DNA of 64,000 bases from Nitrosococcus wardiae (GTDB taxonomy: Bacteria > Pseudomonadota > Gammaproteobacteria > Nitrosococcales > Nitrosococcaceae). A program made the position numbers and the translations under genes. A model generated the notes under the pieces. The model did no database searches. It was given only the letters and a program-made list of their open reading frames with translations, and was not told where the DNA came from. The DNA lies in the NCBI RefSeq assembly GCF_004421105.1, contig NZ_CP038033.1, positions 763,659-827,658 of the forward strand, given 5' to 3'. Shown here piece by piece: positions 9,080 to 50,070 of the stretch; position 1 is the stretch's first letter; each line of letters opens with the position of its first letter.

Positions 9080-9095
9080 TGTTGGCTCGTATTCA

Positions 9096-9473: not shown

Positions 9474-9500
9474 GGACTGCTAAGAAACGCGAATTTCCCA

Positions 9501-9538: not shown

Positions 9539-9555
9539 ATGGCGAAACTCCAAAA

Positions 9556-9819
9556 TCAAGACATCGAGCGGATTCTGGCGCTCAACCGGCTCTTATGCCG
9601 AGCGGCTTTGTTAGGATGAATCAGCCCCTTGCGCGCCAAGCGATCGAGCACCGGAATAGCTACCCCATAAGCCACAGTCGCCTGCTCCTTATCACCCGAG
9701 GCGATGGCTTTTATGACTTTCTTCATATAAGTCCGCATCATAGAACGCTGGCTTGCATTATGGAGCCGGCGTTTTTCCGCCTGACGGGCACGCTTACGGG
9801 CTTGTAACGAATTGGCCAA
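9556..9819 (-). CDS. rpsT: 30S ribosomal protein S20
   Basis: An 87-residue basic protein starting [20 protein letters not shown], with [17 protein letters not shown] at the C-terminus, typical of S20. It binds 16S rRNA in early 30S assembly. It is divergent from murJ, as in many gammaproteobacteria. The last residues RSMS differ slightly from the common RIRAL ending, next to the tnpB remnant. Confidence 0.97.
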
Positions 9820-9956
9820 AATTTCACCTCCGAAGGTTTAATATTAAAAAATTAAAAACAAATAATGATGCCAATTTCCATGGCAGTTGTAAACGCCCCT
9901 AGGTAAAATGGCGCACTTTTCCTAAAAAAAAACGAGCGATTTCCTGGTCTATTATT

Positions 9957-11492: not shown

Positions 11493-11503
11493 GAAAAGAA
11501 AAT

Positions 11504-11538
11504 AGGCGTGACACTATAAGTTCAAAGGTATCACGCCT
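11504..11538. terminator. Stem-loop between murJ and cyoE
   Basis: A perfect 8-bp stem, AGGCGTGA at 11504-11511 and TCACGCCT at 11531-11538, lies between the convergent murJ and cyoE genes. There is no T-tract, so it may act as a bidirectional transcript-end structure. Confidence 0.45.
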
Positions 11539-11644
11539 GTGGGATGAGTCTTATCACTGTAGCTGTTATTTATAAAACCTGCACCTGGATAAGAGAAGAC
11601 TATCTTCTGTGTTAACAAACCGTTCTAGTTATCCAGCGCTAACG

Positions 11645-12544
11645 TTATAAAAATTTTGGCAGGTAATGATCTACTAATAAAAATGCAAATAACGCTGCCA
11701 GATAAAATATAGAATAGCCAAAGGTCTTCATTGCTAGTTCATTACTGGTATGGCGATAAAGCGCAAGCGCAAGATACAGGAAGCGCCCCCCCAGCACTAC
11801 GGCACCGACCAGATAAACTAATCCACTCATTTGGCTGACAAAAGGCAGCAGACTGACCGCAAATAATAAAAAGGTATAAAGGACGACCTGCTGCTTGGTG
11901 AAATCAATACCATGGGTAACCGGTAACATGGGAAAATTAGCACGGCTATATTCTTCCCGGCGCGCTAAAGCCAAAGCCCAGAAATGAGGCGGTGTCCACA
12001 CGAAGATAATCAAGAATAGGAGAAAGGCGTGCACATGCAACTCCCCCGTGACAGCAGTCCAACCTAGCACCGGCGGCATTGCCCCTGCCGCCCCTCCCAA
12101 TACAATATTCTGCGGAGTGGCACGCTTGAGAAAAGCTGTATAAATAATTCCATAGCCAAACATGGAAGCCAAAGTTAGCCAGGCCGTCAAAGGATTAACC
12201 AGAAAATACAAGATCGCCATTGACAGCAGGCCCAACATAATCGCAAAGGCCAGAGCCTGCTCCCGGTCAATCTTGCCGCTAGGCAAGGGACGGCCTTGCG
12301 TTCTGGCCATTAAGGCATCGGCTTTTTCATCAATCAAGTGGTTAATCGCCGCGGCAGAAGCCGCCCCTAAACCAATTCCAAGACTGCCTAGCAAAAATAC
12401 CTGCCATGGCGCCAGTTCTGGAACAGACAAAAACATACCGACAATAGCGGTAAAAACAATAAGGGAAACAATACGGGGCTTGCATAATACGAGATATTCC
12501 CGCCAGTTGGTTAAAGCCCCACGAATTAAGGTAATCGTTGTCAT
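11645..12544 (-). CDS. cyoE: Protoheme IX farnesyltransferase
   Basis: A 299-residue membrane prenyltransferase of the UbiA fold. It has the aspartate-rich motif INHLIDEKADALMARTQGRP and a second YSRANFPMLPVTHG block. It converts heme B to heme O, the step before CtaA makes heme A. The start overlaps the ctaA stop as ATGA, so the pair is translationally coupled. It is the last gene of the leftward oxidase-assembly operon. Confidence 0.95.
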   Translation of the reverse strand: MTTITLIRGALTNWREYLVLCKPRIVSLIVFTAIVGMFLSVPELAPWQVFLLGSLGIGLGAASAAAINHLIDEKADALMARTQGRPLPSGKIDREQALAFAIMLGLLSMAILYFLVNPLTAWLTLASMFGYGIIYTAFLKRATPQNIVLGGAAGAMPPVLGWTAVTGELHVHAFLLFLIIFVWTPPHFWALALARREEYSRANFPMLPVTHGIDFTKQQVVLYTFLLFAVSLLPFVSQMSGLVYLVGAVVLGGRFLYLALALYRHTSNELAMKTFGYSIFYLAALFAFLLVDHYLPKFL

Positions 12545-13569
12545 AGTCTTGTAGCTCCTCGCAATTGGTACCCTGTGGGATGGAGCAGGTGATTTAAAGT
12601 AACGATGGCAAGCAACAATAATGCAGCCACAGCGTTATGGGCTACCGCCAGCGCTAAAGGTATTCCGCCCATGGCAGTGGCAATTCCTAACGCCACCTGG
12701 ATAAGGAGCAACGCCACGACGATCCACCCAACACCGCGCAATACTGGAGTACCTCGGCCTAATCCCGCCCGTAACCCGATAGCACCCACCACGACCAAAA
12801 CTATCATGGCACCAATTCGATGAACCACATGGATTGCCGTTGCTGCCTCAGGCGCTAGCCGTCCACCTTCGTAATTTTCTCCTAGCGGCTGCCAAAATGT
12901 GAAAGCCTCGCGGAAATGCATATTCGGCCACCATTGTCCCTGGCAAGTGGGAAAATCCGGGCAAAAGAAACCCGCATAGTTGGTGCTGGTCCAGCCTCCT
13001 AGGATGATCTGGAATACTAGGAGAAACAATCCTATTAGGGACCACGTTTTGAAAGCCGGCGAGTACCAGATCCGCTGCATAGGATAGTGGGCTTGCCGCT
13101 GTCGTAGTGCCAGCCACCAAACCAAGGATAACACTGCCAGCCCCCCTAGGAGGTGTAGTGTTACAATGGCTGGTTGCACTAGGAGGGTAACGGTCCACAT
13201 TCCCAATGCAGCTTGAAATCCTACTAATCCCACTAAAAAAATAGGCAAAGCAACTCTCTGCCTGGGATCAGAACGATTGCGCCAAGCAGCGATGGCAAGC
13301 CCTAAGATTAAAAAGCCTAATATACCTGCGAGATAGCGGTGGATCATCTCCTTCCAAGCTTTATCCGTCTCCACCGGACGATCAGGGTAAAGAAGATTGG
13401 CCTGGTCAACTTGCTGCTCGGTAGTCGGTGCTAGCAACTGCTCATAGCAACCTGGCCAATCCGGGCAACTGAGTCCAGCATCAGAAAGGCGCACATAGGC
13501 TCCAAATACCACAACCACCAATGCTAATAAACTGGCCGTCAAAGCAAAGGCGTGAAACCGGTGACTCAT
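12541..13569 (-). CDS. ctaA: Heme A synthase (COX15/CtaA)
   Basis: A 342-residue protein with eight predicted membrane segments. Motifs include GAYVRLSDAGLSCPDWPGCY in the first loop, IHRYLAG with a heme-ligand histidine, and NYAGFFCPDFPTCQGQ in the second half. It oxidises heme O to heme A for aa3-type oxidases. It is coupled to cyoE by a 4-bp overlap and lies 9 bp after the Sco-like gene. Confidence 0.95.
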   Translation of the reverse strand: MSHRFHAFALTASLLALVVVVFGAYVRLSDAGLSCPDWPGCYEQLLAPTTEQQVDQANLLYPDRPVETDKAWKEMIHRYLAGILGFLILGLAIAAWRNRSDPRQRVALPIFLVGLVGFQAALGMWTVTLLVQPAIVTLHLLGGLAVLSLVWWLALRQRQAHYPMQRIWYSPAFKTWSLIGLFLLVFQIILGGWTSTNYAGFFCPDFPTCQGQWWPNMHFREAFTFWQPLGENYEGGRLAPEAATAIHVVHRIGAMIVLVVVGAIGLRAGLGRGTPVLRGVGWIVVALLLIQVALGIATAMGGIPLALAVAHNAVAALLLLAIVTLNHLLHPTGYQLRGATRL

Positions 13570-13578
13570 ATTTATCTA

Positions 13579-14205
13579 TTACCCTATTTGAGAAACAAAT
13601 AACAAGCGTTTAAGGTCCTTAAGAATATGCTCAGGAGCTTCTTCAGGCGGGTAAGTAATCACAATATTACCAATAGGGTCGACGATATACACACGTTGCG
13701 CTGCTAACGGGTCAGGGACCTTTGGCAGCACGAACTGGTCTATAAACCCTTTCTTTTTTTCTCCTTCGGATGCTATGAGAAGATCAGGGTGTTGTTCTTC
13801 AAGCCAATCTGATTCACTAAGAGAGCCCACATCATTGACAACCCACAAACGTTGGACACGCTGCATCTCCTTACCCACAGCTAAGCGTATCTGGCGTGTC
13901 TCATAAAGATTTTCTTGACAAATGTCATCACACGCTGCGGGCCCAAAAACAACCAGAGTCCACTTCCCCTTAAGTTCAGAAAGGGTAAAATCCTTTCCTT
14001 CCAGGGTCTTGAGGGTGGTCTCCTCTAGGGGCCTTGCAGGCCTGATAAGCTCACCGTAATTGCGGGTTGCAAACTCCCCTTCTTGCTCTAATGCTTTCAA
14101 AAACCACCAGGCCGCTATCACGGGGAGTGCACATATGGCAAAAATAGCAAAACTCACCCAACCCGGTCGTCCCCGTTTCGTCTTCGATTTTCCGTTATCC
14201 ACCAC
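13579..14205 (-). CDS. Sco-like thioredoxin-fold protein, copper histidine missing
   Basis: A 208-residue protein with one N-terminal membrane anchor (about residues 17-36) and a thioredoxin-like domain. It has the Sco-type CxxxC motif as C92-DDI-C96. In Sco proteins the third copper ligand is a histidine in a VDH motif; here the matching stretch reads YIVDPIGN with Pro177. The domain may act as a thiol reductase in CuA assembly rather than carry copper. It lies between surf1 and ctaA in the same operon, which supports a role in oxidase assembly. Confidence 0.8.
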   Translation of the reverse strand: MVDNGKSKTKRGRPGWVSFAIFAICALPVIAAWWFLKALEQEGEFATRNYGELIRPARPLEETTLKTLEGKDFTLSELKGKWTLVVFGPAACDDICQENLYETRQIRLAVGKEMQRVQRLWVVNDVGSLSESDWLEEQHPDLLIASEGEKKKGFIDQFVLPKVPDPLAAQRVYIVDPIGNIVITYPPEEAPEHILKDLKRLLFVSQIG

Positions 14206-14219
14206 CTACTCTTACCCTT

Positions 14220-14993
14220 TTAACTTCTGTTGCGTTGCTCGCTGCCATCAAAACTGCGCCGATATAAAACAACGAATACGACCACTGCGACTAATGCCAT
14301 AGCAAACCATTGAACCGCATAAGCAATATGTTGCTGCACACTCGTGGGAAGCCCGGGCCACTGGCGCACAAAACCATAAGGCTCATCAGGAGCCAATTGG
14401 AGAACCAAGGGCTGCAAAGAATAGCCTAGGTTAGGCTGCAGTTGCTCTGTGTTGACATATTGAACTCGTTTTGGCCAGCCTGTTGTTTCCCGAGTTCCCT
14501 CATCCCCTAAAAAAAAAGGTGCTTGGGGGGGGCGCCGTAAAGTACCATGTACTGTCACCTGTGAATGGGGGATATCTACCTGGGGAAGTTGTTGTCGGTC
14601 TAAGCCCATGGGAACCCAACCTAAATTAACAAGTATTGCACTTCCACTTGCGCTAGTTAACCGTAACGGCACTAGCACGTGATAACCCGCCTGGCTCTCC
14701 TGGATTTGGTTATCCAAAAACACAATATGCGCGCTATCAAATCGACCCTGAGCGATACCCTGGCGATACTCACTATCCGGCAATGATAACCTATCCCGCC
14801 CCACCCAAAGAGGTTCGCTAGCGCTACGTTCTCTAAGGGCAACTTCAATTGCACGCTTCTCATCAGCCCGCTGCAATTGCCAAATGCCTAATGAGGCCAG
14901 GATGGCGGTGACGAGCAGAGAAACCATTATGAAACGTATTTTGGAGCAGGGCTTTTTGCCCTTTAATGGAGATGGCACGCTTGGGTTGTTCAA
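14220..14993 (-). CDS. SURF1 family cytochrome oxidase assembly protein
   Basis: A 257-residue protein with two membrane segments, near residues 19-40 and 226-246, flanking a periplasmic domain. Hallmarks are LGIWQLQRADEKR, NLGWVPMG and the C-terminal HIAYAVQWFAMAL. SURF1 helps deliver heme A to subunit I. It starts the surf1-Sco-like-ctaA-cyoE run; the stop is 14 bp before the Sco-like gene. Confidence 0.93.
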   Translation of the reverse strand: MNNPSVPSPLKGKKPCSKIRFIMVSLLVTAILASLGIWQLQRADEKRAIEVALRERSASEPLWVGRDRLSLPDSEYRQGIAQGRFDSAHIVFLDNQIQESQAGYHVLVPLRLTSASGSAILVNLGWVPMGLDRQQLPQVDIPHSQVTVHGTLRRPPQAPFFLGDEGTRETTGWPKRVQYVNTEQLQPNLGYSLQPLVLQLAPDEPYGFVRQWPGLPTSVQQHIAYAVQWFAMALVAVVVFVVLYRRSFDGSEQRNRS

Positions 14994-15184
14994 TTAATGA
15001 AGGTTAAACTATGGTTAATATTACAATGCGGTTACATGAAATTTTCTGAGAGAGGGGTAATTGGCGAACCGATATTTATTTCTCGAACAAGGGTTACACC
15101 TTCGCCCTGAGGGCAGAGTCGCAACTTTTACGCTGTAATAACCCAACTCCACAGTTTCTGACCTTAAGCTAAACGGAGCACTTC

Positions 15185-15433
15185 ATGATTTTTAAATTAC
15201 TCGTTATCGCTCTTTTAATTTCAATTCTTTACGCCCTAGGGAGCGCACTCTTTGCCCTCATACGAAGTGGCGGTAGCTCGGATGACCGAATGGTCAAAGC
15301 CTTGACTTTTCGTATTGCCCTCTCTTTAGGATTATTTATCCTGCTTATGCTTGGCTATGCTACCGGGCTTATCACCCCCAATACCATAGTTCCTGCCGAG
15401 AAAATGGAAGAAATTCAATCTAGCCAACAATGA
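15185..15433 (+). CDS. DUF2909 twin transmembrane protein
   Basis: An 82-residue protein with two hydrophobic helices (about residues 4-26 and 45-65) separated by a polar loop SGGSSDDRMVKALTFRIALS, matching DUF2909. Family members accompany cytochrome oxidase clusters. Here the gene is inverted, facing ctaE and divergent from surf1. Function is unknown; a small oxidase-associated subunit or assembly factor is likely. Confidence 0.85.
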   Translation: MIFKLLVIALLISILYALGSALFALIRSGGSSDDRMVKALTFRIALSLGLFILLMLGYATGLITPNTIVPAEKMEEIQSSQQ

Positions 15434-15451
15434 ATGCAGGCATTGCTGCCG

Positions 15452-15488
15452 CTTATTACCTAGCTAGGTTTCCTAGCTAGGTAATAAG
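15452..15488. terminator. 17-bp perfect hairpin between DUF2909 gene and ctaE
   Basis: The arms 15452-15468 and 15472-15488 are perfectly complementary over 17 bp with a 3-nt loop; the core is CCTAGCTAGG. It lies between two convergent genes and can end transcripts from both sides, although no long T-tract follows on either strand. Confidence 0.65.
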
Positions 15489-15530
15489 GACAAAACAGGA
15501 ACTCATTGCACCGCTGACAAGCAGCAACCG

Positions 15531-16397
15531 CTACAGCCAATAAACAAACACAAATAGGCCTAGCCACACCACGTCAACAAAGTGCCAATACCAAGCAACC
15601 GCCTCAAAGGCAAAATGCCGCTTGGGGGTAAAATGACCAGCCATGCTGCGAATTAAAACCACAAGCAGCATAATGGAACCCACAGTGACATGGAATCCAT
15701 GAAAGCCAGTCAACATATAAAATAACGAACCATAAATTCCAGACCCTAAAGTCAGATTCAGTTCGCTCATGGCATGGCTATATTCCCAGGCCTGTAATCC
15801 AATAAAAGTCCAACCCAGAGCAACCGTAAGAAATAATCCAATAATTAGCTTCTGCCGATTATCCTGCTTCAGACCCCAATGAGCCCAGGTCACGGTAACA
15901 CCACTAGTTAGAAGAATCAGCGTGTTAAGGGCTGGCACTCCCCAGGCCCCCATGGACTGGAATTCTCCGCCGATACTTTGTGGTCCATTGCTGGGCCATG
16001 CCTCGGTGAAATCCGGCCATAGCCAAGTATGGGCAGCTCCTTTCGCCCCCTCCCCCAAAAGCCACGGCAATGAATAATCACGTGCGTACCAAAGCGCCCC
16101 AAAGAACGCTGCAAAAAAGAAGACTTCTGAGACGATAAACCAGATCATGCCCCAACGAAAGGAGCGATCAACTTGATCGTTATAAAGACCCGCTTCGCTT
16201 TCGCGGATAACGGTTCCAAACCAACCAAACATCATGAACAGCACAATCCCTATGCCGGTAAACATGATATATTTGCCTATTTCCACTCCATTGAGAAAAG
16301 CGGCCAAACCAGCGACTCCAGTAAAGAGCCCAATAGAGCCAATAATTGGCCAATAACTAGGTTGGGGCTGGTAATATTCCCCATGCGCATGGGCCAT
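15531..16397 (-). CDS. ctaE: Cytochrome c oxidase subunit III
   Basis: A 288-residue protein with seven membrane segments. It begins MAHAHGEYYQPQPSYWPI and contains RWGMIWFIVSEVFFFAAFFG and a terminal HFVDVVWLGLFVFVYWL, all characteristic of subunit III. It is a core structural subunit of the aa3-type oxidase in the inner membrane. It follows ctaG on the same strand. Confidence 0.97.
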   Translation of the reverse strand: MAHAHGEYYQPQPSYWPIIGSIGLFTGVAGLAAFLNGVEIGKYIMFTGIGIVLFMMFGWFGTVIRESEAGLYNDQVDRSFRWGMIWFIVSEVFFFAAFFGALWYARDYSLPWLLGEGAKGAAHTWLWPDFTEAWPSNGPQSIGGEFQSMGAWGVPALNTLILLTSGVTVTWAHWGLKQDNRQKLIIGLFLTVALGWTFIGLQAWEYSHAMSELNLTLGSGIYGSLFYMLTGFHGFHVTVGSIMLLVVLIRSMAGHFTPKRHFAFEAVAWYWHFVDVVWLGLFVFVYWL

Positions 16398-16479
16398 AGT
16401 AAGATATCCTCCCGCGTTATTTTAATCGTAATAATGACCGTTATCTTTGCTTACTCAAAATGGGCACCAACCAACCCCG

Positions 16480-17034
16480 CTACCCAGCCGGTGTTGGTTG
16501 CGCTTGAGCGCTAGCACCCACATCAAAAAATGTATATGACAAAGTCACTACGGAGTAATCGTCGGGTATCTTAGGATCGATAAAAAAGACCACCGGCATC
16601 TCCTTTTTCTCACCTGCTTGAAGAACTTGCTCGTTAAAGCAGAAGCACTCGGTCTTATGTAAATGCTTGGCTGCCAGCCCTGGGCTTACACTAGGGATTG
16701 CTTGACCTGTTACAGAGCGATCAGCCAAATTACTAGCATAGTAGTTCACCTTTGTGACTTCACCAGGATGAATGCGAATCTTGCTCACTTCCGGTTTAAT
16801 CTCCCAGGAAAGCTGGCTGTTTACATTCGCTAGCAATTCAACGGTGATCGTCCGGCTAGTATCTACCGTATCAGCTTTAGCTGCTGACACCGCCACGTTC
16901 TCTGGCTTACCGTTTAGACCAGTAATATCACAGAACACATTGTAGAGCGGTATCATGGCATAACCGAAGCCGAACATGGCCACCACCACGAGGGTTAGTT
17001 TCAGCACTAACCTGCGCTTATTGGCTTCTCTCAT
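16480..17034 (-). CDS. ctaG: Cytochrome c oxidase assembly protein CtaG/Cox11
   Basis: I place the start at the ATG at 17034, giving MREANKRRLVLKL and a 184-residue protein. A longer frame to 17109 exists but overlaps the small upstream gene. There is one N-terminal membrane anchor, then a periplasmic domain with the copper-binding ECFCFNEQ and the LYNVFCDITGLNGK motif of Cox11. It inserts copper into the CuB site of subunit I. It begins 8 bp after the stop of the 42-aa peptide gene, so translation is probably coupled. Confidence 0.94.
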   Translation of the reverse strand: MREANKRRLVLKLTLVVVAMFGFGYAMIPLYNVFCDITGLNGKPENVAVSAAKADTVDTSRTITVELLANVNSQLSWEIKPEVSKIRIHPGEVTKVNYYASNLADRSVTGQAIPSVSPGLAAKHLHKTECFCFNEQVLQAGEKKEMPVVFFIDPKIPDDYSVVTLSYTFFDVGASAQAQPTPAG

Positions 17035-17042
17035 AACCGTGC

Positions 17043-17171
17043 TTACCTTGTCGCAGTTAGGTAGATAAATAAGAAATAAATGGCCAATACAATCCCAAAA
17101 AGGATCCATGCCGTACGCCGGGCTTTCGCCCGGCGCCGACTCGGAGACTTAGACCCAAGTCTGTCAGTCAT
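17043..17171 (-). CDS. 42-aa single-pass membrane peptide, oxidase-associated
   Basis: A short gene starting at the ATG at 17171, MTDRLGSKSPSRRRAKARRT then AWILFGIVLAIYFLFIYL and a terminal TATR. It has a very basic N-terminus followed by one membrane helix, the layout of the small peptides found between ctaD and ctaG in many proteobacteria. It fills the ctaD-ctaG gap exactly, its stop is 8 bp from the ctaG start, and AAGG in its last codons can serve ctaG as a ribosome binding site. Function is not known. Confidence 0.75.
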   Translation of the reverse strand: MTDRLGSKSPSRRRAKARRTAWILFGIVLAIYFLFIYLTATR

Positions 17172-17207
17172 AATTTACATCAAATCCTAAAATAACCCGC
17201 CCACTAA

Positions 17208-18797
17208 TCAATAGGGCCTTGAACTCACCTGGGGCGGAGTTGTAAAACTATGATAGGGCGGTGGCGAACTGAGGGTCCACTCAAGGCCCTTTGCTCCTTC
17301 CCAGACTTGATCGCTCACTTTTACCCCGACCCCTCCGCGAATAGTCTTCACAATCACATACACGAAGAGCAGCTGGGAGATACCAAAGATAAAAGCACCC
17401 ACAGTGGAAACGGTATTAAACTCAATAAATTGCAAGGCATAATCCGGGATCCGTCGAGGCATCCCCGCCAGGCCAAGGAATGCTTGAGGAAGGAAAATGA
17501 TGTTCATGGAAATCACGGACAGCCAGAAATGCCATTTTGCCAAGACCTCATCATACATATTACCCGTCCACTTGGGTATCCAATAAAAAACAGCGCCAAA
17601 GGTACCAAACACTGTCACTGGCAACACCACATAGTGGAAGTGAGAAACGATGAAATAAGTATCATGATACTGGAAATCCACTGGGGCCACGCCCATCATC
17701 AAACCAGTCAAACCACCAATGGTGAATAATGCGATGAAAGCTTGGGCCCACAACATGGGTACCTCAAAGGTCATGGAGCCACGCCACATGGTGGTAAGCC
17801 AGTTAAAGATTTTAACGCCAGTGGGAACAGAAATCAGGATGGTAGCGTACATGAAATACAGCTCTCCCGAAACCGGCATTCCCACGGTAAACATGTGATG
17901 TGCCCACACGATGAAAGAAAGAAAGGCAATCGACGCCATGGCATAAACCATGGAGCTATAGCCAAATAGGGGCTTACGAGAAAAGGTTGGAATAATCTCC
18001 GAAATTACCCCAAAAATGGGCAACACGAGAACATAAACCTCGGGATGACCAAAGAACCAGAAAATATGCTGGAACATCACCGGATCACCACCACCTGCCG
18101 CATTAAAGAAGCTGGTGCCAAAATGGCGATCGGTTAGAACCATGGTTACAGCACCCGCAAGTACGGGAACTACGGCAATCAGCAAGAAGGAAGTGATTAA
18201 CCATCCCCAGACAAACATCGGCATTCTCATCAGCGTCATGCCCGGTGCCCGCATATTCAGGATAGTGGCAATAATATTGATTGAAGCTAATATGGAGGAA
18301 ATACCCAGCAAGTGGACAGAAAAGATGGTCATATCAATGCCCGCACCCCCCTGAGCGAACAAGGGCGGGTACATAGTCCATCCTCCTGCAGGGCCACCAC
18401 CTGGCATCAACATGCTACCCAGGAGTAAGGCCCCGGCAAAAGGCAGAAGCCAGAAACTCCAATTGTTCATCCGCGGCAGGGCCATATCGGGTGCGCCGAT
18501 CATGAGCGGTATTTGCCAGTTAGCCAAACCCGCTAAAGCTGGCATAAGGGCACCAAAGATCATCACCAGCCCGTGTAATGTAACTAATTCATTAAATTTT
18601 TGGGGATCTACAATTTGCATTCCCGGGGAGAAGAGTTCAGCCCGGAATATCAGCGCCATTGCGCCACCAACGAAGAACATGATAAGGCTGAACCATAGAT
18701 ACAGCGTTCCAATGTCCTTATGATTAGTGGTGAATAGCCAGCGCGCAATCCCTGTTGGATGATGCGCGTGGTCATCATGTGCTACTGCTGTGCTCAT
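17208..18797 (-). CDS. ctaD: Cytochrome c oxidase subunit I
   Basis: A 529-residue, 12-helix heme-copper oxidase catalytic subunit. It has WFFGHPEVYVLVLPIFG with the CuB histidine and cross-linked tyrosine, WAHHMFTVGM with the CuB histidine pair, and HDTYFIVSHFHYVV with the heme a and a3 ligands. The tyrosine placement (EVY) marks an A-type, aa3 enzyme. It is preceded by ctaC and followed by the 42-aa peptide gene. Confidence 0.98.
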   Translation of the reverse strand: MSTAVAHDDHAHHPTGIARWLFTTNHKDIGTLYLWFSLIMFFVGGAMALIFRAELFSPGMQIVDPQKFNELVTLHGLVMIFGALMPALAGLANWQIPLMIGAPDMALPRMNNWSFWLLPFAGALLLGSMLMPGGGPAGGWTMYPPLFAQGGAGIDMTIFSVHLLGISSILASINIIATILNMRAPGMTLMRMPMFVWGWLITSFLLIAVVPVLAGAVTMVLTDRHFGTSFFNAAGGGDPVMFQHIFWFFGHPEVYVLVLPIFGVISEIIPTFSRKPLFGYSSMVYAMASIAFLSFIVWAHHMFTVGMPVSGELYFMYATILISVPTGVKIFNWLTTMWRGSMTFEVPMLWAQAFIALFTIGGLTGLMMGVAPVDFQYHDTYFIVSHFHYVVLPVTVFGTFGAVFYWIPKWTGNMYDEVLAKWHFWLSVISMNIIFLPQAFLGLAGMPRRIPDYALQFIEFNTVSTVGAFIFGISQLLFVYVIVKTIRGGVGVKVSDQVWEGAKGLEWTLSSPPPYHSFTTPPQVSSRPY

Positions 18798-18959
18798 GCC
18801 ATTTCTCCTACAAAATTAATCCTCATCATGAAAAATACCTTACCAAGGTTATTCCCTATGCTTGCCTTCCTGTTTTTCTCGCCTGCTTGAACCCATGACA
18901 GCCGAGAAAAGTCCAGGAACCTAAGTACGATATCCTTCGGCTAGAATTAGAGCGCTTCT

Positions 18960-19793
18960 TTAACTTGAACTCTCAGTTGAATCACCATTGGTGTCATTAG
19001 GCTGGGCAGCTTTTTGCGAAGATACCCATTTATCAAACTCTTCCTGAGTTTTCGCTTCTACGACAATAGGCATATACCCATGCCCGCGGCCACAAAGTTC
19101 CGTACATTGGCCCCGATAAGTCCCTGGCTCTTCAATGACTGCCCAGGCCTCATTAATAAAACCTGGTACCGCATCTTGCTTGAAACCAAGCGCCGGCACC
19201 CACCAGGCATGGATAACATCATCGGCGGTAATGACAAAACGGACCTTTTTATTGATTGGAAGCACCAGTGGATTGTCCACCTCAAGCAGATAATTTTCAC
19301 CCTTAGGTGATTTGTTTGCTATCTGATCAAAAGGTGTGGACAAATTGCTCATAAAGCCAAATCCATGGTCCACATAGTCATAACGCCAGCGCCACTGGTA
19401 ACCCGTAACTTTAATGGTGAGTTCCGAGTCAGAAGCATCATACAAGCGGATCATGGCAGAGGTTGCCGGCACCGCAATGGATAGTAAGATTACAAACGGA
19501 ATAACCGTCCATACGATTTCAAGGGTAGTATTTTCATGGAACTGACTCGCTACCACGCCCTTGGACTTACGGTGATGGTAAATACTCCACGCCATGACAC
19601 CGTAAACTAAAAGACCGATACCGACGCAAACCCAAAAAATCAGCATATGGAGGCCGTATATCTCTTTTGAGGAAGGAGTAATTCCTTCAGTCAAATTCAC
19701 GGCCAATTCGGCATTAGCATTTCCACCTATCAGGAACAGGCCTATGGCTCCCGCAATAACCGTGAACAAGCTTCTTTTATCAGACACGCCCAT
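18960..19793 (-). CDS. ctaC: Cytochrome c oxidase subunit II
   Basis: A 277-residue protein with a signal peptide (GNANA at about 24-28), two membrane segments (about 45-70 and 95-115) and a periplasmic cupredoxin domain. The CuA ligands are visible: H195, C230, C234, H238 and M241 in QCTELCGRGHGYM. The aromatic electron-entry patch is GYQWRWRYDY. No fused cytochrome c domain is present, so an external cytochrome c is needed. It is the first gene of the leftward oxidase operon. Confidence 0.97.
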   Translation of the reverse strand: MGVSDKRSLFTVIAGAIGLFLIGGNANAELAVNLTEGITPSSKEIYGLHMLIFWVCVGIGLLVYGVMAWSIYHHRKSKGVVASQFHENTTLEIVWTVIPFVILLSIAVPATSAMIRLYDASDSELTIKVTGYQWRWRYDYVDHGFGFMSNLSTPFDQIANKSPKGENYLLEVDNPLVLPINKKVRFVITADDVIHAWWVPALGFKQDAVPGFINEAWAVIEEPGTYRGQCTELCGRGHGYMPIVVEAKTQEEFDKWVSSQKAAQPNDTNGDSTESSS

Positions 19794-20545
19794 TCATCTC
19801 CCCTTCAACTGTCAATTAATGTGATGGTTCTCGTAGTGTTTCAAACAATTTTGATTGCATCCTTGAATACATGACCAGCCTTTTGCTTTGTGCGCAAGGT
19901 CTGCACCTAGCCAATCGCTGGTTTAAACAAGGTACAAAAAACAAACAATGTAATTGGTAAACCATTATTTGGTTAGTAGCTAACTCGCCCGCAAGCGTCT
20001 GCACCTTTGAAACTGAATACTCATTGCCCTTCACAATGATTTAGGTCCAAATGAAATGCAGTCTCTGTCTTTGACCAAAATTAAGGACGTCCGGGTAGTG
20101 TAGTGTGGAGCCACCGAAAAATTTGCTAACACCTTTGGCACCATGCATCCTCTTCGCGCAATGTCACTTTTACTGACCCAGTCCAAGATAATTCGGAGGA
20201 CTGGTGTAGTAGTATAAGCATTCACCAATAACCTCGAGTTTGCCGGTAACGACAGACACCACGAAGCCCATGGGGTGTGCTCAATGAGCAGGAGCTAATC
20301 GGCGGTATCCTAGGCTTCCATCCATTGCTCAAGTCTAAACCGCTAAGCTGCTGGAGGGATTGGTACCACAGCGCCTTACGATTTTGGCTCCGACTTCCCG
20401 CTGCCAGTTCTGGTTCCATTTTAAGGTTGGGTCTTGCGAAGCTCATAGATCCTATGGGCGATCCAAACGGTGGTACCAAACCTATATATACCATACATGT
20501 TTTATAGATGCCAATATTTATATACTCATAATGAAAATGAAACCA
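19794..20545. other. 750-bp gap upstream of ctaC, no gene recognised
   Basis: Small open frames on both strands around 20222-20507 overlap each other and show no family features. The stretch 20270-20500 is more GC-rich than its flanks and has a pair of TGGTACCA words (about 20361 and 20471), which hints at a degraded insertion. The promoter of the ctaC operon should lie in the right-hand part next to 19793. Confidence 0.35.
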
Positions 20546-33405: not shown

Positions 33406-33563
33406 AAGGAATGGCGGCAACATTAGGAAAGTCAGGTGAGGGCAAATGAGGCAGGCACGATGGCCACAGATTCGGTACTGGCAGCCGAAGAGGCCGGGCT
33501 AACGATACGTTCACGATGAAAAACCCGGTATCAGGCGCCATCGCGCCGGCCGCGGCTTTTTGC

Positions 33564-33631
33564 ATAAGCCGCTAATTCTTTTTGGTGGGCCCAGTAGGAC
33601 TCGAACCTACGACCCCCGTATTATGAGTCCT
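33564..33631 (-). repeat. att site: duplicated 3' half of the CAT-anticodon tRNA
   Basis: 33583-33614 is identical to 37902-37933, the 3' part of the tRNA gene at 37902-37977, including the encoded CCA and the T-arm. The match continues with ATTATGAGTCC (anticodon region) after a diverged 5-6 bp, and outward over CATAAnCCGCTnATTCTTTT. This is the far attachment site left by integration of the island between the two copies. Only the 3' half remains, so it cannot be a working tRNA. Confidence 0.9.
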
Positions 33632-33780
33632 AAAACAAACCTTTCCACCTGTTCTCACCTTGTTTTATCCTCTTTTAATACCTTTCACTATCAGCTGCTT
33701 ATAGTTTATATTCAGCCTTACTGAGTTTTATTTAGTTTTGTATAGAGTGCTTACAGAGCACTTACAGGGTTAAAAAGGGG

Positions 33781-34515
33781 CTGAATATAAAACCCACCAA
33801 GACGGTCATTGACCGGCTACCCAAGCCAAAGAGTGGCTAGCAAGCTTTTTATTGGGACCCGGCCTTACGGATAACCCTGTCAACCGTCTATCCGAGGCGA
33901 GAACCTGGTACTGGGTAGAGCGGCGGCGCACGGTCATCAAGCCCCATGAACTTAATCCCTGGATGCAGACAGTCCAAAAGCTTGAGAACACCGCTGCCCG
34001 TGACTATTTGATGCTGGTGCTATTGACGGGGCTTAGACGTACTGAGGCCCTAGAGTTACGCTGGCAGGATGTGGACTTGAAGTGGCAGACTCTCACGGTC
34101 CACGACACCAAGAATCGCCAAGCCCATACCCTCCCCCCTCTCCGATTACCTGGCGGATATGCTCTCCAGGCGCAGGACTGAAACGATTGGCTCCTATGTG
34201 TTTGAAACCCCCAGGGGGCGTTTATCGAACCTGCGCTACGCTATCGCAGAAGTGGAAAGTAAATCGGGGGTGTCGTTTTGTATCCATGACTTAAGGCGCA
34301 CTTTCGCTACTGTGGCCGATGCCCTGGACATTCCGGGCTATGCCGTCAAGGCCCTACTGAACCACAAAAACGGCAATGACGTGACCGCCGGTTATATCGT
34401 GGTGGATGTGGAGCGGCTACGGGGACCGATGCAGAAGATCACTGACTTCATGCTGAAAGCTGGCGGCGTGCGTGAGGGAGCTAAGGTGGTGGAACTGGGG
34501 GCAGTTAGTGGCTAG
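33781..34515 (+). pseudogene. int: Broken tyrosine integrase of the island
   Basis: The N-terminus KPTKTVIDRLPKPKSG then QAFYWDPAL is interrupted by TAG. Next comes a deletion of most of the arm-binding region, then LTDNPVNRLSEARTWYWVER leading to the catalytic LLTGLRRTEALELRWQDVDL. A C6 run at 34133-34138, where five C would keep frame, shifts the frame before LSDYLADMLSRRR. The end keeps IHDLRRTFAT, LLNHKNG and the tyrosine in AGYIVVDVERLR. So the R-H-R-H-Y residues survive in pieces but the protein cannot be made. It is adjacent to the att repeat, as expected. Confidence 0.85.
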
Positions 34516-34549
34516 GCAGTTTTTTTTTATAAATACCTATAACGGGTCA

Positions 34550-34590
34550 CTGCCAAAATTGACAAAAGGGGTTTATGTCACTTTTGGCAG
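34550..34590. repeat. 15-bp inverted repeat at the integrase/antiporter junction
   Basis: CTGCCAAAATTGACA (34550-34564) and TGTCACTTTTGGCAG (34576-34590) are complementary except for one position. The right arm overlaps the last codons of the antiporter gene (VNCQK and stop). It may be a terminator-like structure or the end of an insertion that brought the antiporter gene. Confidence 0.5.
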
Positions 34591-35834
34591 TTCACCCTAT
34601 CGGCCGCCCGCTCCACCAGGAACCCCGTCGCGCCGTGGATCACCGCCGAGGCGAAGATCGTGAAAACGACGAGCGCCCAGAGCTCCTTCTCGTTGATGAA
34701 CTCAATGTGGCTCGAGGCGTAGGCCAAGTAGTAGATCGAGCCGACACCGCGCACACCGAAGAGGCCCACGAGCCAGCGCTCGCGCGACGTGAGCTCGGTA
34801 CGCGCGAGCGAGAGCCAGCCCAGCAGCGGGCGGACTACCAGGAGCAGGCCCAGGCCGATCAACGCGTGCCGCCAGTTGAGCGCGGGCCAGAGATCGGGGA
34901 GCGTGCTGCCGAGGAGGACCAGCAAGATGGCCGTCACCGCGTGCTCGATCGGCTCGCTGAACGCATGCAGGCGGCGGTGGAATTCGTGCTTCTCCTCGAC
35001 GCGCCGGCAGATGACGCCGGCGACGAACGATCCGATAAAACCATACCCCTCCGCCAGCTCGACCACGCCGTAGCAGAGCAGCACCGCGGCCAGCGCCACC
35101 ACACCCGGGCCGGTCTGGGCGAGGCCCGTCGCTCCCGGGGCGTGAAACAGGCTCTTGCCGAGGAGCCATCCGACGGCCGCTCCCATGACGACGCCTACTG
35201 CGATGCGGTAGAGCACGTCGCGAAGCAGCCAGATCGAGAGCCAGTCGCTGGGCTGCGTGCCTTCGGAGGCGAACCACAGCCCCAGATACACAAAGGGGAA
35301 CGCGAGCCCGTCGTTGAGTCCCGCCTCGGATGTGAGTGCGAAGCGGAGCGGGTGCTCGCGCCCTTCAAGCGGCGGGCCCACCTGCACATCGCCCGCGAGC
35401 ACCGGGTCAGTCGGAGCGAGCGCCGCGCCGAGGAGTACCGCGCCCGCGATCGTCATGCCCGCCAGACTCCAGCCCATCACCGCGATCACAAAGATGGTCG
35501 CGGGCAAGGCGATGGCGAGCAGGCGGATCGTCGGCCGCCAGAGTCGATAGTCGCGGACGTTATCGATCCGGAGCCCGGTGGAGAAGAGCACCACGATCAG
35601 CACGATCTCGCTCGTCACCTCCCAGAGCCGCGGCGACGCCGTTGGATCGAAGGCCGCCGGCATGCCCGGCACCACAAGGTAGGCGGCGAGCCCGAGCACC
35701 ATGAGGAGCGCAGACGACGAGGCAGCACGCAGCGATAATAGCCGTGGCAGCCAGTGCGCCAAAAAGATAGCCGCGCCCGCGGCGGCCATCAGCACGTGAT
35801 AGGGGGAGAACTCGAAGAGGGTTTTCTCTTCCAT
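34578..35834 (-). CDS. CPA1 family Na+/H+ antiporter (NhaP-like)
   Basis: The ATG at 35834 (MEEKTLFEFSPYHVLMAAAG) is preferred to longer frames up to 36011; this gives 418 residues with about 12 membrane helices. CPA1 motifs are FSTGLRIDN, ALAPTDPVLAGDVQVG and LTSEAGLNDGLAFPF with the paired acidic residues, and LFGVRGVGSIYYL near the end. The gene is markedly GC-rich compared with all its neighbours, a sign of recent transfer. It is the only intact cargo gene of the island. The last residues NCQK lie in an inverted repeat, so the natural C-terminus may be altered. Confidence 0.9.
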   Translation of the reverse strand: MEEKTLFEFSPYHVLMAAAGAAIFLAHWLPRLLSLRAASSSALLMVLGLAAYLVVPGMPAAFDPTASPRLWEVTSEIVLIVVLFSTGLRIDNVRDYRLWRPTIRLLAIALPATIFVIAVMGWSLAGMTIAGAVLLGAALAPTDPVLAGDVQVGPPLEGREHPLRFALTSEAGLNDGLAFPFVYLGLWFASEGTQPSDWLSIWLLRDVLYRIAVGVVMGAAVGWLLGKSLFHAPGATGLAQTGPGVVALAAVLLCYGVVELAEGYGFIGSFVAGVICRRVEEKHEFHRRLHAFSEPIEHAVTAILLVLLGSTLPDLWPALNWRHALIGLGLLLVVRPLLGWLSLARTELTSRERWLVGLFGVRGVGSIYYLAYASSHIEFINEKELWALVVFTIFASAVIHGATGFLVERAADRVNCQK

Positions 35835-36011
35835 TATAGTGACAGCCCGATACGGTCCATGCTCCGGGCCCTGGCGAACGCCTCGCGGCCCTGCTGGATA
35901 GCGGGTTTCTTGCTTCGAGGAATTAGCAAGCTGCGTACCAGCGCGGGCGAGCCAGGCGCGCCGCAGCATGAAAAGTGCTCGCGCGCTACGCCCGGGAGAG
36001 CGAATCGGCAC

Positions 36012-36351
36012 CGTATGTCTGCGAGACTGAGGGAGCTTGGGCTCGGATTGGGCGAGATCGAGCCCAAGCCTGACCCGTCGCGAGTCTCGACCAGCGCCGA
36101 GATCGGGTCTACGCTAATGGCGCGAACCCAAAGGCCCCGTTTGGATGCCCTCGACACGAGCAGGTTCGGAGCTCGCATTATCGAAACAGACCGCGAGACA
36201 CGACCAGGAAAAGTGGGCGGCATAGTGTATAGGAAAAATAAACACCCTTTTTCATAAGAAGCGAATGTACTAAGAGATATACACATTCTTTCATAGCGAT
36301 CGGCTTGAGAGGCGAAAGCATATTGGATCCATCCACTAACTAATTAAATAA
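36012..36351. other. Island DNA without a recognised gene
   Basis: Overlapping open frames on both strands have no family features. An 11-bp perfect inverted repeat, GCTTGGGCTCG at 36035-36045 and CGAGCCCAAGC at 36059-36069, could terminate or regulate the antiporter transcript unit. GC content drops abruptly near 36220, marking the end of the GC-rich block. Confidence 0.4.
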
Positions 36352-36597
36352 TTAGCCAAATAGATGCTTTATCGTCTCATCCCTGGAAATTCTTAAATTC
36401 GTGGCAACATCAGTAATGATGGCAGATAGCGTTCCCACCCTCAATAGGCTATGGTTGGGGATAGTAATATGATGTTGTCGAGCACCTTCTCCTTCTCTGG
36501 TCAGTCGAATATGGCTATCTGTCTGCCGAGTCACTCGATAACCAACTCGATGGAGGGCTTTTACTAAGTCAGTCCCGCTAACGTCACGAGGAAGCTT
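36352..36597 (-). pseudogene. hicA: HicA-family toxin gene with lost start codon
   Basis: The frame reads KLPRDVSGTDLVKALHRVGY, RVTRQTDSHIRLTREGE, then QHHITIPNHSLLRVGTLSAI, closely resembling HicA mRNA interferases including the catalytic His in the HITIPNH region. The codon before KLPRD is GTA, and no ATG, GTG or TTG is in frame upstream before the antitoxin gene. The first start in frame is a GTG at 36534, which would drop 21 residues of the fold. The gene is therefore probably silent. It follows the hicB-like gene by direct overlap. Confidence 0.7.
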
Positions 36598-36802
36598 TAC
36601 AGCGCAATGACTTCTTCTTTGACAAAATGGAGACGAATTATTTTTGGGGCTTCGTCTTCCTCAAAATGGCAAGATACAGCCTCCCGTACTTGAGCATGCA
36701 GGCTTTCCAAATCATCGGCTTCGGTAAAATCGATTCCCCAAGCGCCCGCACTTGGTATCCACCCTCAGGGGCTTCTTCCACAATAAAAATAATTTCGTTC
36801 AT
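36597..36802 (-). pseudogene. hicB: HicB-like antitoxin gene, frameshifted
   Basis: It starts at the ATG at 36802 with MNEIIFIVEEAPEGGYQVRA, a beta-strand pattern typical of HicB-type antitoxins. After GESI one T is missing from a T-run (about 36726-36730). Restoring it gives TEADDLESLHAQVREAVSCH, FEEDEAPKIIRLHFVKEEVIAL and a stop at 36597. As it stands, the frame ends early. The total is 206 nt, one short of 69 codons. It lies directly upstream of the HicA-like gene. Confidence 0.7.
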
Positions 36803-36850
36803 CAATTTTTCACCCGGTCACTTCAATGGAATGGGAATTAATAAGCATGA

Positions 36851-37186
36851 TTAAATCCGTCTTACCATTAATAGCCCACACCCGAACCCTTTGGCTGGAC
36901 CTATACCTTCATATAAGGTCTGTTGGAAACGCTTTGGATCGGCTACGGTTAGGACACCATTAAACTCTAGGGTGCTGAAGCGTATCGGTCGACTCTGTCG
37001 GTGTTTATGCAAGCGATATTGCCGGTAGCCATCGACGTTTACCTGGCTTTCCTGAACTACAAAACCAAGCTTTTTGGCACGGGTAGCCAACCAGTTAAAA
37101 CCTGTACTTTGTATTAGCTCGGGTAATTGCGGCCAATGTTTCTTAGGGATGCCATCCTTTTTTAACTTATCCTTAAGCATTGTCAA
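36851..37186 (-). pseudogene. cas6e: C-terminal half of type I-E Cas6e (CasE/Cse3)
   Basis: The 111-residue frame holds PKKHWPQLPELIQSTGFNWL, DGYRQYRLHKHRQSRPIRFS, and the C-terminal signature LEFNGVLTVADPKRFQQTLY followed by EGIGPAKGFGCGLLMV. The glycine-rich GIGPAK..GCGLL loop is diagnostic of Cas6e, the crRNA-processing ribonuclease. The N-terminal RAMP half, about 90-100 residues, is absent and replaced by insertion-sequence DNA at 37187. No other cas gene or CRISPR repeat is present in the window. Confidence 0.8.
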
Positions 37187-37229
37187 GAAATAACTTGAGC
37201 AAATTCAAGTTACTTTTATAACCACCCTT

Positions 37230-37529
37230 ATGGCAAAAGTGGAGACTGTTCTCCAAATCCGTACCAAATACGAGTCTCTCGCTCCGCTCTTGGACGAGAG
37301 GAGCAAAAGGTGCTGGGTGGCGACTGAAGCGAGCATGATGGGCTAGGCTGGGATCTTTGCCGTGGCGCAAGCCACCGGTTTGTCTCGCAACACCCAAGCA
37401 GGAGATACACTCATATATAAGAGTTTCACTCACACCGCCTGGCCACGAGGCGGAAGTTTCGTGGTGAATTCCAGCGTCCATACCCTAGCCTGGCTCTCCC
37501 CCGGGCTATTTTTTGCCTTATGCGCTTAA
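37230..37529 (+). pseudogene. ISAzo13-like transposase N-terminal fragment
   Basis: From the ATG at 37230 the frame reads MAKVETVLQIRTKYESLAPL, LDERSKRCWVATEASMMG, stop, then AGIFAVAQATGLSRNT. This is the N-terminus of ISAzo13-family transposases, whose normal text is LDER.RR.WAATEA..LG-GGI..VA.ATG.SR.TI. A TGG or GGG codon has become TAG and the rest of the gene is missing; the remaining frame to 37529 is not recognised. Upstream, TAACTTGA/TCAAGTTA (37191-37212) forms a small palindrome near the cas6e breakpoint. Confidence 0.65.
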
Positions 37530-37531
37530 AA

Positions 37532-37547
37532 TGTGATCCATATCACA
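37532..37547 (+). promoter_or_regulatory. CRP-type binding site
   Basis: TGTGATCCATATCACA is a perfect match to the CRP consensus TGTGA-N6-TCACA. Its centre (37539.5) is about 61 bp before the predicted start of the small RNA at 37600, the class I activator position. Confidence 0.6.
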
Positions 37548-37563
37548 CTTTGGGCAAGTGAAT

Positions 37564-37591
37564 TTGCACATGTCCAAGCAAAAACTATTTT
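37564..37591 (+). promoter_or_regulatory. Putative sigma-70 promoter of the small RNA
   Basis: TTGCAC at 37564-37569 and TATTTT at 37586-37591 are separated by 16 bp. The predicted start is about 37598-37601, just at the first stem-loop of the candidate RNA. Confidence 0.45.
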
Positions 37592-37599
37592 TAATTTTA

Positions 37600-37695
37600 G
37601 GTGCGCGTTAATTCGGCTCATTAACCGCACCTTCCCTTAATACGGGCATAAGTAAGTAATGGGCACGTAGCTCCTTTGCTGTGTGCCCTTTTTTT
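37600..37695 (+). ncRNA. Candidate small RNA with two stem-loops
   Basis: The roughly 95-nt segment opens with a stem GGTGCG-c-GTTAAT paired with ATTAAC-CGCACC (37600-37631, one bulge). A single-stranded linker follows, then a terminator stem GGGCAC/GTGCCC (37661-37688) with seven T. The terminator loop contains CTCCTTT, complementary to a strong Shine-Dalgarno AAAGGAG. No protein is encoded. Promoter and CRP-type site lie upstream at the right distances. The call is inference from these elements together. Confidence 0.5.
37661..37695 (+). terminator. Rho-independent terminator
   Basis: A 6-bp stem GGGCAC/GTGCCC with a 16-nt loop is followed by TTTTTTT at 37689-37695. It ends the candidate small RNA. 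Confidence 0.8.
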
Positions 37696-37735
37696 ATAGG
37701 GTAAGTGTACTTATTGCCCTGGTGGAATGGAGTAG

Positions 37736-37855
37736 ATGGGAAAACACCCCGACAATAGAGAGATTACCCCCTGGCGGATCAGAGCGATGGCGGCTAAGCG
37801 GTTAGCCGCTGGGGTGGCTATTTTTCCTTCTGGTGCTTACTTTCTGCTTACATAA
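37736..37855 (+). CDS. Possible 39-aa basic peptide
   Basis: ATG at 37736 with GGAG 5 bp upstream (GGAGTAGATG) opens MGKHPDNREITPWRIRAMAA, KRLAAGVAIFPSGAYFLLT, stop. The layout is a basic amphipathic stretch followed by a short hydrophobic one. It matches no family I know and may be chance; the ribosome binding site is the only support. Confidence 0.2.
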   Translation: MGKHPDNREITPWRIRAMAAKRLAAGVAIFPSGAYFLLT

Positions 37856-37893
37856 ACAAAAACAGCGGCCCTGCATGGTTGCATAAACCGCTG
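37856..37893 (-). terminator. Terminator of the CAT-anticodon tRNA
   Basis: On the minus strand, CAGCGG (37893-37888) pairs with CCGCTG (37868-37863) and is followed by TTTTTGTTT. It lies 9 bp beyond the tRNA 3' end. A related stem sits outside the other att copy, near 33551-33573. Confidence 0.7.
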
Positions 37894-37901
37894 ATTCTTT
37901 T

Positions 37902-37977
37902 TGGTGGGCCCAGTAGGACTCGAACCTACGACCCAGGGATTATGAGTCCCCTGCTCTACCGACTGAGCTATAGGCCC
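37902..37977 (-). tRNA. tRNA with CAT anticodon (Met elongator or Ile2)
   Basis: A full cloverleaf: acceptor GGGCCTA/TGGGCCC with one G-U pair, D-arm GCTCAGTCGGTAGAGC, anticodon loop CTCATAA, T-arm GTAGGTTCGAATCCTAC, and encoded CCA. It starts G1-C72, so it is not the initiator. The position just after rpoD is like that of E. coli ileX, so a lysidine-modified Ile2 tRNA is possible; sequence alone does not decide. It is the integration site of the island. Confidence 0.93.
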
Positions 37978-49308: not shown

Positions 49309-50070
49309 TTAACTCCGCCTAGCTTTAGCCCTTTTGCTCCCCCTGGCCTTTTTTCCTTTGCCCCCCTTAGCCCTTTTACTGACTCTAGGCTGATTGCTCA
49401 CTTTGGTTTGGGCAGGTGTTTCAGCCTGGGCAGGTGTTTCGGCCTGGGCAGGTGTTTCGGCCTGGGCAGGTGCTTCAGCCTGGGCAGGTGTTTCGGCCTG
49501 GGCAGGTGTTTCGGCCTGGGCAGGTGCTTCAGCCTGGGCAGGTGTTTCGGCCTGGGCAGGTGCTTCGGCCTGGGCAGGTGCTTCAGCCTGGGCAGGTATT
49601 TCGGCCTGAACCTTTGCTTTGATCCTATGGGCCTTCGTATTACCACTAAATAAGGGCATGTTCGCTTCTTTCCATGTCTCGATCCCGCCCTGAAGTACAT
49701 AAATGGCCTTATGCCCTCGCTTGCTCAACTGCGTGGCAACATAGAATGCTCGCTGCCCTGTTCCCCATATCACCAAAAGGGGACGACCTTTGAATTTATC
49801 CAATCTATCTAAATGCTTAAGAAACTTAGAGAAAGGAAGGTGTAGGGAATCCAGGACATGCTCTTTATCGAATTCTTTTTCTTCCCGAATATCAATGACT
49901 TGGGCGTTTTCCTGATTGATCAAGCGCGTGGCCTCAACCGCAGACACGCTCTTAATCCCGCGTAGTCGACGCAGCACCGGATCAATAACCAAGGCAAGCA
50001 AAATAGCCACGAGCAGCAGTGACAACATCCAGTGGTTGGTGAGAAATTCAAAAAGGCGATTGGTATCCAT
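49309..50070 (-). CDS. Membrane-anchored rhodanese-like protein, no catalytic Cys, repetitive tail
   Basis: A 253-residue protein with an N-terminal membrane helix (about 15-32), a rhodanese-like domain (about 45-140, AQVIDIREEKEFDKEHVLDS) and a tail made of PAQAEA/PAQAET hexapeptides (about 155-220) followed by a very basic Lys/Arg end. The active-site loop, usually with VCxTGxRS, reads LVIWGTGQRA, so Trp102 stands where the catalytic Cys should be. It is the YibN-type gene upstream of grxC-secB-gpsA. Sulfurtransferase activity is therefore doubtful. Confidence 0.88.
   Translation of the reverse strand: MDTNRLFEFLTNHWMLSLLLVAILLALVIDPVLRRLRGIKSVSAVEATRLINQENAQVIDIREEKEFDKEHVLDSLHLPFSKFLKHLDRLDKFKGRPLLVIWGTGQRAFYVATQLSKRGHKAIYVLQGGIETWKEANMPLFSGNTKAHRIKAKVQAEIPAQAEAPAQAEAPAQAETPAQAEAPAQAETPAQAETPAQAEAPAQAETPAQAETPAQAETPAQTKVSNQPRVSKRAKGGKGKKARGSKRAKARRS
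49411..49608. repeat. 18-bp tandem repeat (VNTR), 11 units
   Basis: The plus-strand unit is GGCAGGTGTTTCGGCCTG with variants at two to three positions (GTGTTTC/GTGCTTC/GTATTTC and TCAG/TCGG). It spans exactly 198 bp. On the minus strand it encodes the PAQAEA/PAQAET tail of the rhodanese-like protein. Being a multiple of three, unit gain or loss keeps the frame open. Confidence 0.95.

Follow-up and report, generated by a model that had tools for sequence, protein, structure and literature searches.

The stretch of DNA analysed here (the window) comprises 64,000 nucleotides of the Nitrosococcus wardiae genome, and a small intergenic segment at 37532-37695 carries the parts of a putative small RNA (sRNA) gene. 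These parts are a CRP palindrome, a weak promoter, a 5' hairpin, a linker and a terminator, and the predicted transcript is referred to as RNA-B (Table 1). The original prediction described a single CRP-controlled RNA gene. In addition to this, it was found that RNA-B is multicopy, is part of the cargo of integrative elements and lies behind a second repeated RNA-like unit, RNA-A. N. wardiae is a marine ammonia-oxidising bacterium and, in agreement with this, PF02461 (ammonia monooxygenase) matches its genome at E 5e-123.

Table 1. Features of the RNA-B locus and the surrounding island, in window positions.
Feature	Position	Strand	Basis
Left attachment repeat, 3' part of tRNA-Met	33560-33630	.	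66/71 bases identical to 37879-37949
Decayed tyrosine integrase, two frames	33852-34515	+	PF00589, E 2.2e-10 (first part); second part without Pfam match
Na/H-exchanger-type ORF, 477 aa	34578-36011
C-terminal Cas6e-type fragment	36851-37186	-	PF08798, E 1.8e-26
RNA-A: hairpin CCACGAGGCGGAANNNTCGTGG, terminator 37486-37508 with loop CTCTCCC; member of a dispersed family	37389-37514	+
CRP palindrome TGTGATCCATATCACA	37532-37547	+	Sequence, genome-wide pattern counts; half-sites retained in second version (TGTGACCTATATCACA)
Weak promoter: TTTGCA (37563-37568), 17 nt, TATTTT (37586-37591)	37563-37591	+	Sequence
Predicted sRNA RNA-B, about 95 nt, start 37599-37601	37599-37695	+	Fold z -4.6, covariance model R1
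5' hairpin, 12 bp	37599-37632	+	Folding; second version has same stem, loop 11 nt longer
Linker; AATACGGGCATAAGTAAGTAA at 37639-37659 is the invariant core	37633-37660	+	Folding, two-version alignment
Terminator: 11-bp stem, UCCUUU loop (37672-37677), T7	37661-37695	+	Sequence, terminator scan, folding
Third island kept between versions	37756-37807	.	Two-version alignment
Right attachment repeat, overlaps tRNA-Met (37902-37977, -)	37879-37949	.	Repeat comparison

The CRP site is an exact TGTGA-N6-TCACA palindrome, and its centre (37539.5) lies at -59.5 to -61.5 relative to the predicted start. In class I promoters, the CRP site is ideally centred at -61.5. This bears out the proposal of a perfect palindrome about 61 bp before the start and, relative to this predicted start, the class I spacing of the parts, which is also kept in a second version of the gene. 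The proposed sigma-70 promoter has its hexamers at the expected place, but they are weak and of the activator type, with 4/6 consensus bases each (8/12 in total by hand count), and TTTGCA/TATTTT was not listed by the promoter scan, which needs 9/12.

Folding of 37598-37695 yielded -36.8 kcal/mol, compared with -23.1 (sd 3.0) for shuffled sequences, none of which was as low (0/200), and the RNA of the second version folds with a z of -6.7. The 5' stem-loop, linker and strong terminator were correctly anticipated. The 11 pairs of the terminator are uninterrupted and form the longest perfect stem preceding a T run on both scanned strands of the window. Its loop had been read as CTCCTTT; this sequence is present, but only the six nucleotides UCCUUU form the unpaired loop, since the first C sits in the closing pair. 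These six bases have an unpaired probability of at least 0.98 in both versions. The core of the linker is A-rich and, in the window copy, mostly unpaired except for GGG, whereas the linker of the element copy is partly paired via its 4-nt insertion and is less open. The intergenic position, the Rho-independent terminator with a U tail and the presence of Hfq in the host are the traits of an Hfq-type sRNA, to which RNA-B is predicted to belong; in the second version, the T tail is weaker and interrupted (TTTTCC). A coding function of RNA-B was considered and rejected, since no ORF of at least 20 aa lies within the predicted transcript. A 35-aa frame overlaps the 5' part but starts ahead of the predicted transcript, within the CRP site; a 34-aa frame on the opposite strand also overlaps this part, and an ORF at 37683-37805 begins inside the terminator.

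The palindrome is the only match to the CRP pattern with zero or one mismatch in the window. When one mismatch is allowed, this single match compares with 1.2 expected, and one or more matches turn up in 70 of 100 shuffles, which is chance level; the rarity of the site is therefore based on the exact match and not on the one-mismatch count. Seven exact palindromes (14 rows when strands are listed separately) are present in the N. wardiae genome, of which four belong to copies of the RNA-B gene, and the reversed-pattern control returned none. For the five other genomes of the family, exact sites and control matches numbered 2/1, 2/2, 1/0, 2/2 and 4/0, the control equalling the observed count (2 and 2) in two of the five. 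Besides the RNA-B copies, 14 exact palindromes occur in the six family genomes, and at the 13 loci inspected, a terminator-like hairpin within 280 nt was seen once, inside a 370-aa ORF.

The original prediction presupposed a CRP gene in the organism, and such a gene was identified. Five cNMP-binding stretches are present in the N. wardiae genome, two of which share one 408-aa frame. A protein of 226 aa is a CRP equivalog (NCBIfam NF008732, 332.5 bits, cut-off 266) with the recognition helix GCSREMAGR. A second frame of 216 aa reaches 140 bits, below the NF008732 cut-off of 266, and matches CRP structures at 1.4e-31, ranked after cGMP-kinase chains with several cNMP domains. The genome also encodes one class III cyclase domain protein and one Hfq. 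The site, a cognate CRP and a cAMP source, which together characterize a class I CRP promoter, are all present at the sequence level, with binding and cAMP production being predicted.

The window copy of RNA-B is located between 71-bp repeats consisting of the 3' part of tRNA-Met and its flank. A direct repeat of a tRNA 3' part together with a tyrosine integrase identifies the region as a tRNA-site integrative element, and the 4.4-kb island (33560-37949) is regarded as a remnant because the integrase is split. Between the repeats, a HicA-like fragment was found just below the Pfam cut-off, and the ORF of 602 aa beside the island is read as rpoD. The second version of RNA-B, which is about 82% identical, sits in three tandem copies of an integrative element of about 18 kb, which brings N. 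wardiae to two sequence versions and four copies. The three gene copies lie near 3.99 Mb, 4.01 Mb and 3.7 kb, within a tandem repeat that runs across the contig ends. Each repeat unit encodes a tyrosine integrase, a Prim-Pol/DUF3987 primase, a D12 DNA methylase and an IrrE-like peptidase, and the array is interpreted as a tandemly repeated integrative element. The array (3989992-4022640 and 1-20000 at least) comprises three or more copies, which could be a real amplification or an assembly effect. The two elements share a layout: the integrase lies at one end and faces into the element, and the RNA lies close to the opposite end and faces out of it. The integrases differ, with the window pieces being 32% identical to that of the 18-kb element over 44 aa and, for the second part, 45% over 40 aa. 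RNA-B appears to be carried as cargo by two different mobile elements, in each case close to the attachment end.

Homology between the window and the 18-kb element extends over about 37389-37813, and an alignment of the two versions, anchored by the conserved core, was used to count substitutions per segment. The CRP site differs at 2/16 positions, none in the half-sites, and 37548-37598 at 5/51 with 0 indels; no indel occurs from the CRP site through the end of the left hairpin arm. Within the RNA, substitutions amount to 1/26 in the hairpin arms, 3/8 in the hairpin loop (with an adjoining 11-nt insertion), 2/27 in the linker (plus a 4-nt insertion), 1/12 in 37660-37671 (at 37660, just outside the terminator stem), 0/6 in the terminator loop, 1/11 in the right terminator arm and 3/10 in the T tail. 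The downstream flank has 25/64. Pooled stems, linker and terminator loop carry 5/82 substitutions versus the 25/64 of the flank (Fisher p about 1e-6), and the linker core (0/21) and the loop together are invariant (0/27). Covariation of the stems had been put forward as a check and is weak: in the two sequences, the 26 modelled pairs hold 0 compensatory changes, and the three pairs that vary do so one-sidedly with pairing kept (C-G to U-G twice, G-U to G-C once). The shuffle control for covariation is uninformative with only two sequences. Based on the segment counts and the pair changes, purifying selection on the RNA-B module is well supported, and the sequences are only consistent with selection that is specific to structure.

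A third island that was kept between the versions has 7/43 substitutions at 37765-37807, versus 25/64 before and 12/23 after it. Located between RNA-B and the attachment site, it contains a GGCTAA/TTAGCC hairpin. A frame in this island (TPWR..AM.AK.LA) is open in both versions. A coding reading was rejected with moderate confidence, since the start codon is not kept, substitutions do not fall mostly on third codon positions and there is no Pfam match; in the Pfam and Rfam tests made, the island was identified neither as coding nor as a known RNA.

Searches for relatives of RNA-B were made with blastn, covariance models and sequence patterns. Among 39 genomes, blastn matches to the gene were confined to its own genome (three further places), apart from one 22-nt match to the CRP region in a relative. 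Covariance model R1 detected the four copies in the own genome, including both versions from which it was built. Its search of 62 other order genomes brought up no convincing homologue, and two weak matches (E 0.065 and 0.068), at loci without an exact CRP palindrome, were judged to be chance. For the class, 369 genomes were sampled evenly from a larger set and searched under stricter filtering; no homologue was detected in the 368 besides N. wardiae, and the absence applies to those genomes. The plasmids and phages searched by blastn gave 0 and 0 matches to the gene, two exact patterns gave 0 and 0 in IMG/VR, and three matches in a contig pattern search (Chitinophagaceae, Prevotella and Halobacillus), with about 2 expected, were judged to be chance. 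Because no homologue was found outside the own genome among the genomes searched, the constraint is based on two sequences. At gathering thresholds, Rfam recognized only two tRNAs in the whole window. The best weak Rfam match by bits, the trpB motif (23.3 versus a cut-off of 59, E 0.86), was also judged to be chance, and the CyaR model matched neither at gathering anywhere in the window nor among the six matches up to E 10 at 37200-37900. As judged from these comparisons, RNA-B probably represents a new family within a well-known type of gene and does not amount to a novel type of system; it is homologous to no Rfam family. In the literature searched, nothing was found on a Nitrosococcus small RNA together with CRP.

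The upstream unit RNA-A is another repeated unit and belongs to a dispersed family. Model R2, built for RNA-A, matches at least 10 places in the own genome (at least 8 when tandem copies are counted once) and at least one in N. halophilus. Among the matches listed, the other four family genomes had 0 (up to 150 candidates scored per genome), as did 368 other class genomes (up to 10 candidates scored per genome). Besides the window unit, members were observed in N. wardiae at contig positions 1013524, 1165685, 2265693, 2866160, 3230666 and 1773533, and in N. halophilus at 257280. In six sequences, 99% of the pairs in the RNA-A helices are standard, without compensatory changes, and 334 of 500 3'-letter shuffles are as good. 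The first hairpin is disrupted in two weaker members, and one has no terminator. The members have a strong hairpin and C-rich terminator loops, and in several of them an upstream CCGCC or similar could pair with GGCGG in the hairpin loop, so that an H-type pseudoknot is possible. ARAGORN found no intact tRNA genes near RNA-A in eight loci. RNA-A was also considered as a partner or sponge of RNA-B and rejected, since duplex and cofold energies are no better than those of shuffles for both versions. A 2010 survey includes, in the passages concerned, a 'Nitrosococcus-1' candidate motif from Nitrosococcus and Clostridia (PMC2864571). Elsewhere in the window, an 18/54-bp tandem repeat (49409-49608) consists of 11.1 copies of TGGGCAGGTGTTTCGGCC.

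The UCCUUU loop of RNA-B resembles the anti-Shine-Dalgarno core of 16S rRNA, and the original prediction expected it to pair with the ribosome binding sites of many mRNAs. This expectation was examined in a small set of 53 predicted start regions, taken from ORFs of at least 150 aa in the window and the 18-kb element. AGGAG occurs upstream in 5/53 of these regions and AAAGGAG in 1/53. For the loop with its closing pair (CUCCUUUG, 8-mer), 235 of 300 mononucleotide shuffles did as well in best energy and 195 in mean energy; the loop alone is no better than shuffled 8-mers, which lowers the confidence in the anti-Shine-Dalgarno idea. When the bases at the top of the stem are included (UAGCUCCUUUGCU, 13-mer), the mean energy in the 53 regions is matched by 5/300 shuffles and the best site by 22/300, so that the 13-mer exceeds chance in the mean but not clearly in its best site. 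The best region for the 13-mer precedes the heme o synthase gene (11645-12544, -), where AGGAGCUA is the 8-nt complement of UAGCUCCU. This site is a lead only, because 22/300 shuffles reach an equal best energy and because the stem would have to open at its top for this pairing. Within the element and the rest of the window, the longest perfect complementarity to RNA-B is 12 nt.

The explanation that we prefer, and regard as somewhat probable, is that 37532-37695 is an element-borne, CRP-activated gene for a trans-acting sRNA of about 95 nt with loop-based pairing. The parts, the constraint between the versions, the element context and the host genes for CRP, cyclase and Hfq are seen in the DNA itself, and they suggest the following mechanism. 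cAMP-CRP bound about 60 bp upstream of the weak promoter would switch RNA-B on, and transcription would end Rho-independently after about 95 nt. The exposed C/U-rich terminator loop, helped by the bases at the top of the stem, would then pair in trans with purine-rich ribosome-binding sites, and the invariant A-rich linker could serve as an Hfq site or as a second contact. Such pairing would lower the translation of selected mRNAs. A CRP-controlled sRNA, as originally proposed, is also the best reading here, since the second version keeps the half-sites, the spacing, both hairpins and the loop, and since the host has CRP, cyclase and Hfq. Given the results of the pairing tests, we infer a CRP-activated sRNA with good confidence and a seed in its terminator loop with low to moderate confidence.

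A CRP-driven sRNA could also act through its linker or 5' hairpin, as a protein sponge or with a seed in the linker (AAGUAAGUAA), with the terminator loop being merely structural. A-R-N is an Hfq motif according to parts of PMC4104026. The linker core is as invariant as the loop (0/21) and holds A-R-N-like triplets, and the loop alone had no pairing advantage in the 53 start regions. The loop is invariant and exposed as well, however, and resembles the core of the 16S 3' end; constraint does not separate the two readings. We consider action through the linker or hairpin unlikely. It is less probable still that the RNA-A/RNA-B block is a regulated end of the element that acts in cis near the attachment site, through insulating terminators, integrase binding or control of excision. 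Such a role would agree with the block keeping its place and direction in two elements whose integrases differ, with the two successive terminators and with the third conserved island, which lies between RNA-B and the site of attachment. However, an insulator needs no perfect CRP site, no kept hairpins with a variable loop and no invariant linker, RNA-A is found at dispersed places too, and neither in the element nor elsewhere in the window is there a long complement of RNA-B. An element-borne, CRP-activated sRNA that mimics the anti-Shine-Dalgarno end of 16S rRNA, through which host translation would be retuned by the cAMP state with dosage raised by tandem amplification, is a bolder idea and a rather remote one. 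Least probable is that the parts came together by chance or are decaying in an intergenic remnant that has lost transcription. The decay of the window island (split integrase, cas6e and weak HicA-like fragments) and the absence of the RNA-B module from the other genomes searched speak for this reading; the constraint relative to the second version, the fold z of -4.6 and the rare perfect CRP site speak against it.

The preferred reading, an element-borne CRP-activated sRNA, can be compared with several known sRNAs. CyaR (RyeE) of enterobacteria is activated by CRP and targets Shine-Dalgarno sequences, which is like the design proposed for RNA-B. However, CyaR is highly conserved among enterobacteria and has a seed distinct from its terminator loop, which is also conserved, whereas RNA-B was found in one genome only and is element-borne. 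In Helicobacter pylori, RepG pairs through its C/U-rich terminator loop, and this loop suffices for repression, as described in passages of PMC8295292. Unlike in RNA-B, the target of RepG is a homopolymeric G repeat, and CRP control is unmentioned in these passages; the sequence relation of the two RNAs was compared by the Rfam scan only. LhrC1-5 of Listeria are multicopy and 111-114 nt long, and the terminator loop is among the sites that bind lapB mRNA, according to parts of PMC4132741. The same parts describe three redundant CU-rich motifs and control by LisRK, in contrast to the one conserved C/U-rich loop and the CRP site of RNA-B. The three-motif (UCCC/CU-rich) arrangement of LhrC is absent from RNA-B, in which only the terminator loop is both C/U-rich and identical in the two versions; TTCCCTT in the window linker is TGCTCTT in the second version. 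The E. coli prophage sRNAs DicF and Pas are base-pairing RNAs on mobile elements, like RNA-B as proposed (parts of PMC5069750 and PMC13192938). They are carried by prophages, and the same parts of these sources contain no design that combines CRP with a terminator loop.

If RNA-B is transcribed, an ammonia oxidiser of the Gammaproteobacteria would possess a small RNA under CRP control, and cAMP-CRP would feed into an RNA of a mobile element in an autotroph, where the logic of carbon catabolite control is not obviously applicable. RNA-B would then also offer a compact proteobacterial test case for terminator-loop seeds.
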